The position numbers and the translations under genes are program-made. Below are positions 39,166 to 64,000 of a DNA stretch of 64,000 nt, piece after piece (within the stretch, counting starts at the first letter, position 1; each line of letters starts with the position of its first letter). This DNA is from Aphanocapsa lilacina HA4352-LM1 (GTDB lineage: Bacteria; Cyanobacteriota; Cyanobacteriia; Gloeobacterales; Gloeobacteraceae): the NCBI GenBank assembly GCA_019359725.1, contig JAHHGR010000002.1, positions 1 through 64,000 on the forward strand. The letters are read 5' to 3'. The notes beneath the pieces are model-generated. The model was not told where the DNA came from. It worked only from the letters and a program-made list of their open reading frames with translations, and did not search any database.

Positions 39166-40053
39166 ATGTCACAGTTCGACCTCGACGCTTACCTGCGCCA
39201 GTGCCGCTCGCAGGTGGAAACCGCCCTCGATCGCTATCTACCTCAGCAGTACCCGGACAAGCTCTACGAAGCGATGCGCTATTCGCTTCTGGCGGGAGGC
39301 AAGCGCCTGCGGCCGATTTTGTGCCTGACCAGCTGCCGGATGTGCGGCGGCAGCGCGGATCTGGCGATGCCCACCGCCTGCGCCCTGGAGATGGTGCACA
39401 CCATGTCGCTCATCCACGACGACTTGCCCGCCATGGACGACGACGACTACCGCCGGGGCAAGCTCACCAACCACAAAGTCTACGGCGAGGACATGGCCAT
39501 CCTGGCGGGCGATGCCCTGCTCGCCTACGCCTTTCAACTGATTGCCGAGAAAACCGTGGGGGCGCAGCCTGAGCGCGTCGTCGAGGTGCTCGGCCGTCTG
39601 GGCAAAGCGGCGAGCGGCGCTGGTCTGGTGGGGGGCCAGGTGGTCGATCTCGAATCGGAAGGCCGGACAATCACCCTCGAAACCCTCGAATACATTCATA
39701 CCCACAAGACCGGCGCTCTGCTCGAGGTCTCGGTGATCTCCGGGGCCATCCTGGCCGGGGCCGACGGCGGGGTCGTCGAGCGGCTGACCCGCTACAGCCG
39801 CTGCATCGGACTGGCCTTTCAAATCCGCGACGATCTGCTCGACATCACCGCCACCCAGGCGGAACTGGGCAAGACCGCCGGCAAGGACCTGCGCGACCGC
39901 AAGGCGACCTACCCGAGCCTGCTGGGCTACGACGGCGCGCGCGACCGCGCCGAGCAGTTGCGCAGGCAAGCGGTGGCGGAACTGGCGGATTTTGGCGAAT
40001 CGGCCCGGCCGCTGACCGCCCTTGCCGAATTTATCGTGCAACGGCGCCATTAA
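39166..40053 (+). CDS. crtE: Geranylgeranyl diphosphate synthase
   Basis: A 295-residue short-chain trans-prenyltransferase supplying C20 precursors for carotenoids, chlorophyll and quinones. The first aspartate-rich motif [14 protein letters not shown] and the second [10 protein letters not shown] are intact, as is GGKRLRP. The extra residues in the first motif (DDxxxxD form) fit bacterial type-II GGPP/FPP synthases. No other carotenoid gene is next to it. Confidence 0.93.
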
Positions 40054-60349: not shown

Positions 60350-61516
60350 GTGAGTGATCCTTACGGATGGATCCGGGCGGATCTTGAGAGCTTGCACCGG
60401 GTGGGCTGGTACCGGACGACGCGAACCCACAATGGATTGGCCGGACCGCAAATGGATGTGGACGGCAAGCCGGTGCTTCAGTTTGCAAGCAACGACTATC
60501 TGGGCCTCAGCGGCGATAGGCGGCTCATCGAGGCGGCTTGCCGGGCCGTTCGGCTCTACGGCGCCGGGGCGACCGGCTCGCGGCTTCTCAGTGGTGAGCG
60601 CGAGGTGCACCGCGAGTTGGAACGAGCCCTGGCCGGGTGGAAAGGCTGCGAAGATTGCCTGGTCTTTTCGTCGGGGTATCTAGCCAATCTCGGGACGATC
60701 CCGGCGCTGGTGGGCAAGCGCGATCTGGTGGTGGGCGACGCGTATAACCACGCCTGCCTGCGCGGGGGGGCCGAACTGAGCGGTGCTACCCACCGGCTTT
60801 ATCCCCACGGCGATTGCAGCGCCCTGGAACGCTTACTGATCGAGCAGCGCGACCGCCACCGCCGCTGCTTGATCTGCACCGACTCGGTCTTCAGCATGGA
60901 CGGCGATCTAGTCGATCTGGCCCGCATCGCGGATCTGGCCCGCCGCTACGGGTGCATGCTCTTGGTGGACGAAGCCCACGCCACCGGCGTGCTCGGCCCT
61001 ACCGGTGCCGGGGCGGTCGAGCAACTGGGCCTCACCCGATCCCTGGTGCAGATGGGAACGCTCTCGAAGGCCTTGGGAAGCCAGGGCGGCTACGTCTGCG
61101 GCAGTGCTGAACTTGTCGACTATCTGCGCAACCGGGCACGCGGCTTCGTCTACACGACCGGCCTGGCCCCGGCTACGGCAGCTGCGGCCCTGGAGGCGGT
61201 GCATATTGCCCGCACGGAGACTTCTCGCCGCGCCCTGCTCCGACAAAACATCGCTCGCCTGCGCGCGGGTATCGATAAAATCGGCATTGCACAGCTGCCG
61301 AGCGCTGCGGCCATCCTTTGTCTGCGGGTGGGCGATATCGAAGCCACCCGCCGCTTTGCCGGCGAGCTGTTCGACGCAGGCATTTTTGCCCCTTCCATCC
61401 GGCCTCCCACCGTACCGACCAGCCGCATTCGCCTCTCTTTGATGGCGACTCACAGCGAGGCGATGATCGACTCGCTGATCGCGGCCCTGACTAAGGTCTC
61501 GTCGCGCTTCTCCTGA
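60350..61516 (+). CDS. bioF: 8-amino-7-oxononanoate synthase
   Basis: A 388-residue PLP enzyme of biotin synthesis condensing pimeloyl thioester and alanine. LQFASNDYLGLSGDRRLIEA, ATGSRLLSGEREVHRELE, LVDEAHATGVLGPTGAG and the PLP Lys in TLSKALGSQGGY are canonical. GTG start at 60350 with a GGGAG box. No other bio gene nearby. Confidence 0.93.
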   Translation: MSDPYGWIRADLESLHRVGWYRTTRTHNGLAGPQMDVDGKPVLQFASNDYLGLSGDRRLIEAACRAVRLYGAGATGSRLLSGEREVHRELERALAGWKGCEDCLVFSSGYLANLGTIPALVGKRDLVVGDAYNHACLRGGAELSGATHRLYPHGDCSALERLLIEQRDRHRRCLICTDSVFSMDGDLVDLARIADLARRYGCMLLVDEAHATGVLGPTGAGAVEQLGLTRSLVQMGTLSKALGSQGGYVCGSAELVDYLRNRARGFVYTTGLAPATAAAALEAVHIARTETSRRALLRQNIARLRAGIDKIGIAQLPSAAAILCLRVGDIEATRRFAGELFDAGIFAPSIRPPTVPTSRIRLSLMATHSEAMIDSLIAALTKVSSRFS

Positions 61517-61582
61517 ATGGCATGCCCCCCTCGCTAAGGAGAAATCAGGCAAGTGCAGCCCCTGGTATCTTAGGCTACAACT

Positions 61583-61834
61583 TTGAACCCACCCAGCGGC
61601 CGACCGGGTGGCCGACCGTTCATCAACGTGATCGCGCCGCTGCTGCCCTATTTCCCACTCATCATCGTCTTTGCGCGAAAATCCGGTTCGTACTTGCGCC
61701 TGGGATCGCTGCTCGCCGCGATGCTGCCCTATTCGGTCGCCTTCGGTCTCGGCTGGTCCGGGCTATTCGTGCTGTGGTATTTGCTCGACTTACCGCTCGG
61801 GCCAGGAGCACCACTGCTATATACCCATAGTTGA
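61583..61834 (+). pseudogene. 3' remnant of an AbgT-type transporter gene
   Basis: The frame reading INVIAPLLPYFPLIIVFAR, then LGSLLAAMLPYSVAFGLGWS, LFVLWYLLDLPLGPGAPLLY to a stop matches, from memory, the C-terminal end of the AbgT (p-aminobenzoyl-glutamate) transporter family, which ends in the same LPLGPGAPL phrase. Only about 70 of some 500 residues remain and there is no proper start. It probably was truncated when the adjacent AT-rich cassette entered. Confidence 0.7.
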
Positions 61835-61863
61835 ACCGGGTAGCTCAGTGGTAACTACCACAG

Positions 61864-61893
61864 TTGGAAAGCCAGGAATATGACGCCTATAAT
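61864..61893 (+). promoter_or_regulatory. Sigma-70-type promoter of the GTPase cassette
   Basis: TTGGAA (61864-61869) and a perfect TATAAT (61888-61893) are spaced 18 bp and lie 30 bp before the GTPase ATG. This is the best consensus-like promoter seen in the window and suggests the cassette carries its own transcription signal. Confidence 0.6.
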
Positions 61894-61922
61894 ACTTAGC
61901 ATGGTAGCTACTGGAATTGACT

Positions 61923-62726
61923 ATGCCTGACCAGACTGGTGATGTCGTCAAGGTTACCAAAACAGCAATTGAATTTTCTGAAGCTGTACTTCAGATCCTT
62001 AAAGAACGTGGAGTACTCGATAAGGTTTTCGATGTTTTCTTGGGGAAAGAACATGTCGATATCCTTGTACTTGGAGCAACGGGAGTAGGTAAATCAGCAT
62101 TTATCAATGCTTTGCGCGGCCAAAGCTCACTTGCTATAGCAAGTACTAGAGAAAATCAAGACATACAAGGAATTCTTCGAGGAGTTGTGTTCAACATTGT
62201 TGACACTCCTGGACAAGTAGCTGATAAAGAGATTCGCGCCAGAGCAATTAGAGAAGCAACGAGAAAAAAATACGTTGGAATCATTAATATTGTCTGCAAT
62301 GGTTACCACGAATCGGAAGCTCCAGATTTAAAAAGTCGAAATGTTGCTGAAGCCCTCGTTGACGGAGAGCCGTCACCTGAGTATCTCCGCAGTTGTCGCA
62401 AAAGAGAAATTGATGCTCTTGAGGAGTGGACAATCTTGCTTGGTGGTTATGAAGGTGCAAAGTGGTTGGTGACAGTTGTTACGAAAGCCGATCTCTGGCT
62501 GGCACCTAGTACAAAGCAAGACGTACTCAATCACTACGCGCAAGGTCCTTACGAACAAGCGTTAGGAGAGGCAAAAGCATTGCGTCGTATTGTGTGCTCG
62601 TACTCGTCTACTAATAGGCTTTTCTTTCAAAGAGCAGCTATGAGTGGCTTTTACACGGATGAGCAACGCTTCGCAGATCACAATGCATTGGTTGCTACAA
62701 TTTTGGCTTACTGCGCTAATAGATGA
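61923..62726 (+). CDS. P-loop GTPase of the AT-rich cassette
   Basis: A 267-residue predicted TRAFAC-class GTPase. An N-terminal helical stretch of about 40 residues precedes the Walker A motif GATGVGKSAFINAL (about 52-65), a switch region with STRENQD, the G3 motif DTPGQ and the G4 motif TKAD (about 190). It resembles AIG1/IRG-like or Era-like GTPases, but no close family is claimed. The gene is clearly AT-richer than its surroundings (25 of 60 G/C at 62101-62160 against 38 of 60 at 61021-61080). Its stop overlaps the next start as ATGA, so the two proteins are made together. Confidence 0.8.
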   Translation: MPDQTGDVVKVTKTAIEFSEAVLQILKERGVLDKVFDVFLGKEHVDILVLGATGVGKSAFINALRGQSSLAIASTRENQDIQGILRGVVFNIVDTPGQVADKEIRARAIREATRKKYVGIINIVCNGYHESEAPDLKSRNVAEALVDGEPSPEYLRSCRKREIDALEEWTILLGGYEGAKWLVTVVTKADLWLAPSTKQDVLNHYAQGPYEQALGEAKALRRIVCSYSSTNRLFFQRAAMSGFYTDEQRFADHNALVATILAYCANR

Positions 62727-63514
62727 GCACACACATGGACAATGAAGACACTGCCAAAAGATTACCTGACAATAACGAAATACCATTTCCCTGTAAAGAT
62801 TTACCTTTCTTTTTGCGTCTTGAACTGCAAAACAGGCTTGAAGAAGCTATTACATGGAAAGCTTTGGGTGATTTAGAGAAGCAAAATCATAACCTCAAAG
62901 AAGCACATGAGTATTATGTGAAAGCATTGGCGCACTACAAAGAAAATAGCTACCAGATTGAAGATTTCAAGAAACGGCAACTTTTGGAAAACTTCCACAG
63001 CGATGAAGTAGATATCATATCTAGGTACAAACTGGTTACAAACATAAGCGAATTAAAAGGTCGCTCAAGAAGCCTTAGAATATTGTCTTTAATGGTGCTA
63101 TTGCTAACAATTATTCATGCTTTTTTCCCTCTGCTTGCTGCGAGTTCATCGCTGAATATAGGTTGGTCTGCCTCTACAATGCTATTTTACGAGGTGTATG
63201 TTTTGACTCTTGTCCTTCTAACAATATTTTTACATCGAGGAGAATCAAGACGAGGAAAAAAGCAATATCAAAGCATTAGCGATGGCCTTGAATACTATGC
63301 TTCCCGGATGCATACGAAAGATAGCAACAGTTTGTTGTTGGAATCAGAGTCCAGTAAAGAAAAGTACTCCCTGGCAGATGTGCAGTCTATCCTTCGCGAA
63401 TACTTAGAGTCCACCTCTCTGCTACTTTTGCCCGAAGGCTACGGTGCAGCCGTTTACTTTTTTGCGAACTTACTCATGATTGTTCTCAATGTCTACTTCG
63501 TGTTTCGATGGTAG
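62723..63514 (+). CDS. Helical membrane protein partner of the GTPase
   Basis: A 263-residue protein. The cytoplasmic N-terminal part (about 30-110) is a TPR/MIT-like helical hairpin (EEAITWKALGDLEKQNHNLK and AHEYYVKALAHYKENSYQ). Two or three transmembrane helices follow at about 115-170 (LRILSLMVLLLTIIHAFFPL; LFYEVYVLTLVLLTIFLH), then a charged region and a final hydrophobic helix (AVYFFANLLMIVLNVYFVF). It begins within the GTPase stop (ATGA overlap) and shares its low GC. It may recruit the GTPase to the membrane. No known family recognised. Confidence 0.75.
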   Translation: MSTHMDNEDTAKRLPDNNEIPFPCKDLPFFLRLELQNRLEEAITWKALGDLEKQNHNLKEAHEYYVKALAHYKENSYQIEDFKKRQLLENFHSDEVDIISRYKLVTNISELKGRSRSLRILSLMVLLLTIIHAFFPLLAASSSLNIGWSASTMLFYEVYVLTLVLLTIFLHRGESRRGKKQYQSISDGLEYYASRMHTKDSNSLLLESESSKEKYSLADVQSILREYLESTSLLLLPEGYGAAVYFFANLLMIVLNVYFVFRW

Positions 63515-63542
63515 TGTTCCATCCTCATAAAATTTTGGATGC

Positions 63543-64000
63543 TCAGGCTGTACTTCGATCCTCAAGAGATTGAAAACTCTGGCAGCTAACACCTGCCGGG
63601 TCCAGCCACAGCACCAGGTTGCGCACGTAGATTTTGGTGTCTTCTAAAGCGTGCGGATGCAGGGCTGTTTCATTCTAGCTTTGCATTGGATGCAAATGAG
63701 AATCGAGAGCGGCAAAAGCCTTATTGCTTGTTGAGCAGGTCAAGCTTATTGACATGGCCGAATGGGGTTTTTGGAGAATGAAACAGCCCTGCGTGCGGAT
63801 GGGTCTGCATCGTGTCGCCGGGCAGTTCGCACACGAAGCTTGGACAGGGATAGCGGCCGTCCCAGTTGACATCGCTGAAGTGGTGAAAAGTCGATTCGGC
63901 CACCGCCCGGCCGGAGTGGGCCGTGCGCTCAATGGCCACCGCCAGGTTGAACAGGCGACCCGAGACCAGGCTCGCGCCGCGGGCCACCACCCGCGCATCG
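63543..64000 (-). pseudogene. Host gene interrupted by MITE copy 2, 3' part
   Basis: On the minus strand a gene enters from the right edge (ARVVARGASLVSGRLFNLAV; AESTFHHFSDVNWDGRYPCP; FVCELPGDTMQTHPHA). At 63791 the MITE interrupts it. If the element plus one 10-bp duplication is removed, the frame continues perfectly as LEDTKIYVRNLVLWLDP to a stop at 63543. With the insertion, the reading frame runs 22 codons into the MITE and stops. The intact product looks like the C-terminal domain of a larger enzyme or carbohydrate-related protein, but I cannot name it. Confidence 0.8.
63650..63801. mobile_element. MITE copy 2 with 10-bp target duplication
   Basis: The element is 63660-63791 (132 bp), identical in every base to 11290-11421. 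It carries the same 17-bp terminal inverted repeats and is flanked by the direct repeat CGTGCGGATG (63650-63659 and 63792-63801). The differing duplications at the two sites show two independent insertion events. Confidence 0.93.

Follow-up and report, generated by a model that had tools for sequence, protein, structure and literature searches.

GTPase-controlled immunity is a theme of the animal IRG and GIMAP proteins and of complex bacterial conflict systems, and it is seldom seen as a minimal pair. A P-loop GTPase with a dedicated membrane partner is also known from YcjX/YcjF of the Psp network. In the DO-GTPase/GAP1 conflict systems (Kaur et al. 2020, PMC7159879), a TRAFAC GTPase switch is tightly linked to a second protein, TM components are frequent, and the layout is one in which the switch is constant and the effector variable. 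In Eleos (LeoA/LeoBC) and in bacterial dynamins such as DynA (PMC8844932), the GTPase acts at the membrane.

Here we analyzed a stretch of 64,000 nucleotides from Aphanocapsa lilacina HA4352-LM1 (termed the window), in which a preliminary description had singled out two AT-rich, coupled genes, a GTPase and a membrane protein, as a candidate for an undescribed system. The pair matches no described family, and we found no description of such a GTPase-membrane-protein pair in the open-access literature or the family databases searched, in keeping with that candidacy. The module is real, widespread yet rare, and horizontally moving, and it is not a housekeeping GTPase with a transporter.

The two proteins and described GTPase systems

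The first gene (positions 61923 to 62726, plus strand, with ATG at 61923 or TTG at 61917 as the start and the stop ending at 62726) encodes a GTPase of 267 aa. Its motifs comprise the P-loop GATGVGKS, DTPGQ, the family motif GYHE, and TKADLW; the presence of G1, G3, and G4, together with a Pfam MMR_HSR1 match above the curated cut-off (32.9 bits versus 21.9), places the protein in the TRAFAC class. No NCBIfam housekeeping equivalog (Era, Der, YsxC, MnmE, RsgA, or HydF) was matched at its cut-off (for instance, Era gave 22 versus 237 bits). These cut-offs rule out a housekeeping GTPase accompanied by a transporter, the orthology that the preliminary description had named as a refutation of its proposal, and the sole transporter sequence is a scrap lying outside the pair. 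AlphaFold2 gave a good GTPase model (pLDDT 78, pTM 0.82), and a structure search returned EngB (4dhe), Toc34 (3bb1), and Irgb6 (7ves) as the closest solved structures. The P-loop, DTPGQ, [TN]KxD, and the fold are indeed common to the window family and to MMR_HSR1 (Era/EngB-like), Toc34, and IRG G domains, whereas the window family is distinguished by a paired membrane gene and by GYH, a motif specific to it that follows the fourth strand. GYH(E), at window positions 62301 to 62309 (GTPase residues 127 to 129), is nearly invariant across the family; it would lie on the nucleotide-facing side of the sheet and may contact the partner or a second GTPase in a dimer.

The second gene (positions 62723 to 63514, plus strand) is an ORF for a membrane partner of 263 aa with three predicted TM helices (residues 120 to 138, 152 to 170, and 243 to 261), and its start overlaps the end of the GTPase ORF by ATGA. 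The AlphaFold2 model, of moderate confidence (pLDDT 70), runs from a helical hairpin through a long helix into TM1; TM2 then continues as a cytoplasmic helix, after which come an amphipathic helix and TM3. A charged segment, SRRGKK, after TM2 points to a cytoplasmic location for the long helices. The partner had been called a TPR/MIT-like membrane protein, and the N-terminal hairpin (residues 29 to 75) is real; the family label did not hold, as the TPR_2 match is subthreshold (19.5 bits versus a cut-off of 27, E = 0.001), no TPR or MIT match exceeds its cut-off, and the hairpin is confined to the Gloeobacter copies and missing from the other partners. The conserved core, which starts after residue ∼95, is the membrane part. 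None of the partners tested reached the threshold of a Pfam, PADLOC, or PHROGs family, and a structure search with the window partner gave nothing below E = 0.001 in the PDB or among viral models, with no pore-like fold recognized.

The partners fall into several types. Type A (the window, L006, L020 to L026, and L028) has three TM helices and a core of roughly FEEISDELEW ... RxxLRxF ... LPLxPGxxGAAxY before TM3. Type B, found mostly in cyanobacteria and also in Bradyrhizobium, Armatimonadota, and others, has two TM helices and ends in LDLRLADAE. Homology between the two types was considered and rejected, since hhalign found none, and their likeness is therefore treated as one of layout only. 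A third, distant type occurs in L042, within the genome of a Gloeobacter relative, and in an alphaproteobacterium (L058:383-2199) the GTPase is followed by two small membrane proteins, a three-gene version.

We compared the module with the systems introduced above. Like the DO-GTPase/GAP1 systems, it combines a constant GTPase with changing partners (3-TM, 2-TM, doubled, or soluble), but it has two genes only, and Pfam scans of the window proteins (E ≤ 1) and of their relatives (E ≤ 0.5) contained neither the DO-GTPase nor the GAP1 domain. The small 2-TM effectors of the SLATT group share with the type B partner a helix-TM-TM-helix, cytoplasm-facing layout, whereas in type A the motif LPLxPGxxGxxxY precedes a third TM helix; neither the window partner nor nine other partners scanned gave a SLATT match. 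Compared with YcjX/YcjF, the module is of different size and is patchy and mobile in distribution, and DUF463 and DUF697 were not among the Pfam matches at E ≤ 1. With Eleos and the dynamins it would share a GTPase acting at the membrane, but the window GTPase, at 267 aa, has no dynamin stalk, and its LeoA match is weak (E = 8e-5) and limited to residues 32 to 103, the P-loop region. The GIMAP/AIG1 match likewise stays under its cut-off (24.5 versus 27 bits) and covers residues 46 to 111 only. In this comparison, the module appears to work most like a minimal GTPase plus membrane-effector system while being a member of none of the systems compared.

Composition and site of the pair in Gloeobacter

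The pair stands apart from its surroundings, as the preliminary description had noted. Its GC content is 0.418, versus 0.633 in the flanks, none of the 302 other stretches of the same size within the 64 kb is as AT-rich, and GC3 is 0.34 for the GTPase and 0.41 for the partner, versus 0.77 in bioF. A promoter-like site, TTGGAA-18-TATAAT (positions 61864 to 61893, plus strand), scores 10/12, and its hexamers and spacing are identical in the relative G001. The proposal that the pair has its own consensus-like promoter is thus upheld for this site, although weaker sites of the kind are frequent by chance (7 found versus 2.9 expected).

Both neighboring features described earlier were recovered. 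Upstream lies the C-terminal scrap of an AbgT-type transporter (positions 61583 to 61834, plus strand; last 68 aa, E = 3e-19), which is outside the conserved two-gene unit and belongs to a segment missing from the relative G003. Downstream, a MITE-like insertion (positions 63652 to 63797) has 23-nt inverted arms at 63654-63676 and 63775-63797, is bounded by an 11-nt target duplication (gcgtgcggatg), and has displaced the 3′ end of a minus-strand gene. This element is missing in G001 and is a separate, later insertion outside the module. Only the cassette, the AbgT scrap, and this one MITE were seen at the site, which does not sustain its description as an integration hotspot. A tRNA-like string at ∼61837 to 61852 was also considered as an att site and discarded, as there is no tRNA and no credible Rfam match there. 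Elsewhere in the window, ARAGORN reported a tRNA with an odd anticodon, its type undetermined (positions 39845 to 39937, minus strand).

Searches of relatives' genomes showed the pair at the same place in G001, where it is 91% identical, and gave no match in G002 or G003. Genome comparison delimited a segment (positions 61516 to 63587) common to the window and G001 and missing at the same site in G003, where about 60 bp of other sequence separate bioF from the downstream gene. The dN/dS ratios between the window and G001 (0.23 for the GTPase and 0.16 for the partner) are near that of bioF (0.26), and, judged by these ratios, purifying selection keeps both genes. G001 also has a second, distant pair of a GTPase and an overlapping membrane protein (L042:726-2190; G001:C1 at about 4,564,500, minus strand), with a GC content of 44% versus 60%.

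Pairing and spread across genomes

Scanning genome contigs with one protein gave no match. tblastn identified a GTPase on a Rhodococcus plasmid, followed immediately by a membrane protein, and a profile scan added 18 further loci. With whole-genome searches included, the set came to 24 distinct GTPase loci, which belong to nine phyla: Cyanobacteriota, Pseudomonadota, Thermodesulfobacteriota, Acidobacteriota, Hydrogenedentes, Planctomycetota, Bacteroidota, Actinomycetota (plasmid), and Armatimonadota. A membrane protein of 150 to 265 aa lies directly downstream in 20 of the 24 loci (counted when the two genes share a strand and either overlap or lie no more than some 30 bp apart). Among 203 background genes of these stretches, 2 have a small protein with at least two TM helices behind them in this way (∼1%). 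The preliminary description had proposed a profile search for co-occurring pairs in other genomes and had named their lack as a refutation; the co-occurrence is clear, and that refutation fails. Two Planctomycete loci (L030 and L037) have a small soluble protein in the partner position, and no partner was found beside the GTPase in L027 and L035.

Searching eight genomes with a partner profile, we found the partner match adjoining the GTPase in seven; in the genome of L026 (G637) the match was split in two within a single ORF, and the L027 genome had no partner anywhere. Among 386 cyanobacterial genomes, there was no intact partner without the GTPase, the only intact partner match being that of the window itself. 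GTPase and partner distances are correlated in a mirror-tree analysis (r = 0.74 for type A and 0.84 for type B), with 0 of 5,000 permutations as high. One might suppose, as both genes are AT-rich and lie within one insertion, that they are unrelated passengers sitting together by chance; the frequency of pairing (20 of 24 loci, versus a background of ∼1%) and the mirror-tree correlation refute this and leave a chance neighborhood virtually no probability. The two genes almost certainly form a dedicated module.

Among the type A GTPases, L027:6001-6732 alone has no partner anywhere in its genome; it shows no AT bias and lies directly upstream of a pheT-like gene.

The module is AT-richer than its flanks in 22 of 24 loci, the lone GTPase of L027 being one of the two exceptions, and the module is the most AT-rich stretch of its locus in 20 of 24. 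The GTPase tree departs from that of the species: Gloeobacter branches with two Alphaproteobacteria (support 99/99), and the nearest relatives of the Rhodococcus plasmid copy are those of Desulfobacterales and Acidobacteria. On that plasmid, pDK4 (L006), the pair has the mobF side on one flank and the DUF4913/TraM transfer genes on the other, and the same slot of the related plasmid pCP135 holds about 12 kb of other cargo. Such a cargo position adjoining transfer genes would suit a toxin-antitoxin-like or plasmid-maintenance pair, in which a harmful membrane protein is held inactive by the GTPase and the stability of the element is served, as would the tight overlap, the co-inheritance, and the small size of the membrane partner. 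Usual antitoxins are smaller and less conserved than the window-type GTPase, however, and the GTPase of L027 stands alone; we consider this explanation quite improbable.

The module is rare, being found in 3 of 386 cyanobacterial genomes, in 2 of 289 in one Alphaproteobacteria sample, and in 1/199, 2/118, and 1/119 genomes in other phyla, seed genomes included. Viral contigs and phage-record proteins that we searched gave no match. This distribution bears on another explanation, an envelope-stress or membrane-maintenance module in which the GTPase would assemble a partner scaffold that reshapes or stabilizes the inner membrane, like YcjX/YcjF or bacterial dynamins, with no anti-phage role. A soluble P-loop GTPase with a dedicated small membrane partner, the predicted long cytoplasmic helices on that partner, purifying selection like that of a normal gene, and neighbors that are mostly housekeeping genes (about 18 loci inspected) are all consistent with it. 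Yet neither protein rises above threshold for the YcjX, YcjF, or dynamin families, and the very patchy occurrence in the cyanobacterial and alphaproteobacterial samples, the strong AT bias, the copies on a plasmid and in a phage remnant, and the clean presence or absence fit an accessory module better. A stress role therefore appears unlikely, if less so than a toxin-antitoxin pair.

Possible role in inter-genomic conflict

The preliminary description had likened the pair to accessory systems such as membrane-acting defense or stress modules. The accessory part is borne out: the module is dedicated, co-inherited, mobile, and matches no described family. The proposed role finds less backing in the gene neighborhoods, which yielded one clear defense neighbor and are otherwise mostly housekeeping. 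In a Desulfobacterales-type MAG, an RT-Toprim defense reverse transcriptase (L023:4077-5762, E = 1e-221) lies directly upstream of the pair; a single clear defense neighbor among about 18 inspected loci may be due to chance. The other mobile contexts are the plasmid L006 and the cyanobacterial locus L009, a phage remnant in which phage portal and scaffold genes adjoin the pair. A PD-Lambda-2_B match is probably explained by a HigA/ImmA-like regulator downstream in L009. We also considered an IetA neighbor in L028 and set it aside, because this 647-aa AAA protein seems better read as FtsH from its Peptidase_M41 and AAA tallies. Just downstream of two Planctomycete GTPases lies a Trypsin_2 gene for a secreted-looking trypsin-like protease (L030:7224-8198 and L035:7311-8234).

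Defense is nonetheless our first choice of purpose, because a constant switch with a variable membrane effector, in patchy, AT-rich, and mobile form, is typical of conflict systems (PMC7159879) and because L023 adjoins a defense reverse transcriptase. We propose that GTPase and partner are made together by translational coupling and that the GTPase would bind the partner's cytoplasmic helices and serve as a nucleotide-dependent switch. A trigger would change its nucleotide state and thereby drive the partner, probably oligomeric, which would alter or permeabilize the inner membrane or be assembled into a membrane platform; GTP hydrolysis would then return the system. The most likely purpose would be inter-genomic conflict, that is, restriction of phages or plasmids via membrane damage or growth arrest. 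Within this proposal, control of the membrane protein by a GTP switch is probable. The explanation taken as a whole, a mobile GTPase-switch/membrane-protein module most likely serving inter-genomic conflict, is the best that we can offer, at a confidence just short of even. A defense role as such we hold more cautiously: the pair makes a good candidate for a membrane-acting defense or stress system, though an unproven one. More tentatively still, the family might represent a new superfamily of conflict systems, horizontally spread over at least nine phyla, in which small membrane effectors of interchangeable kinds (3-TM, 2-TM, doubled, and, in Planctomycetes, soluble) are gated by a small GYH-signature GTPase.

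If the switch-plus-membrane-effector reading is true, the pair would be a simple two-protein version of GTPase-controlled immunity. It consists of two small, clonable genes with conserved motifs to mutate (K57, GYH, and LPLxPGxxGxxxY) and with relatives for comparison, and even without a defense role, protein families that are unnamed in current databases become defined.
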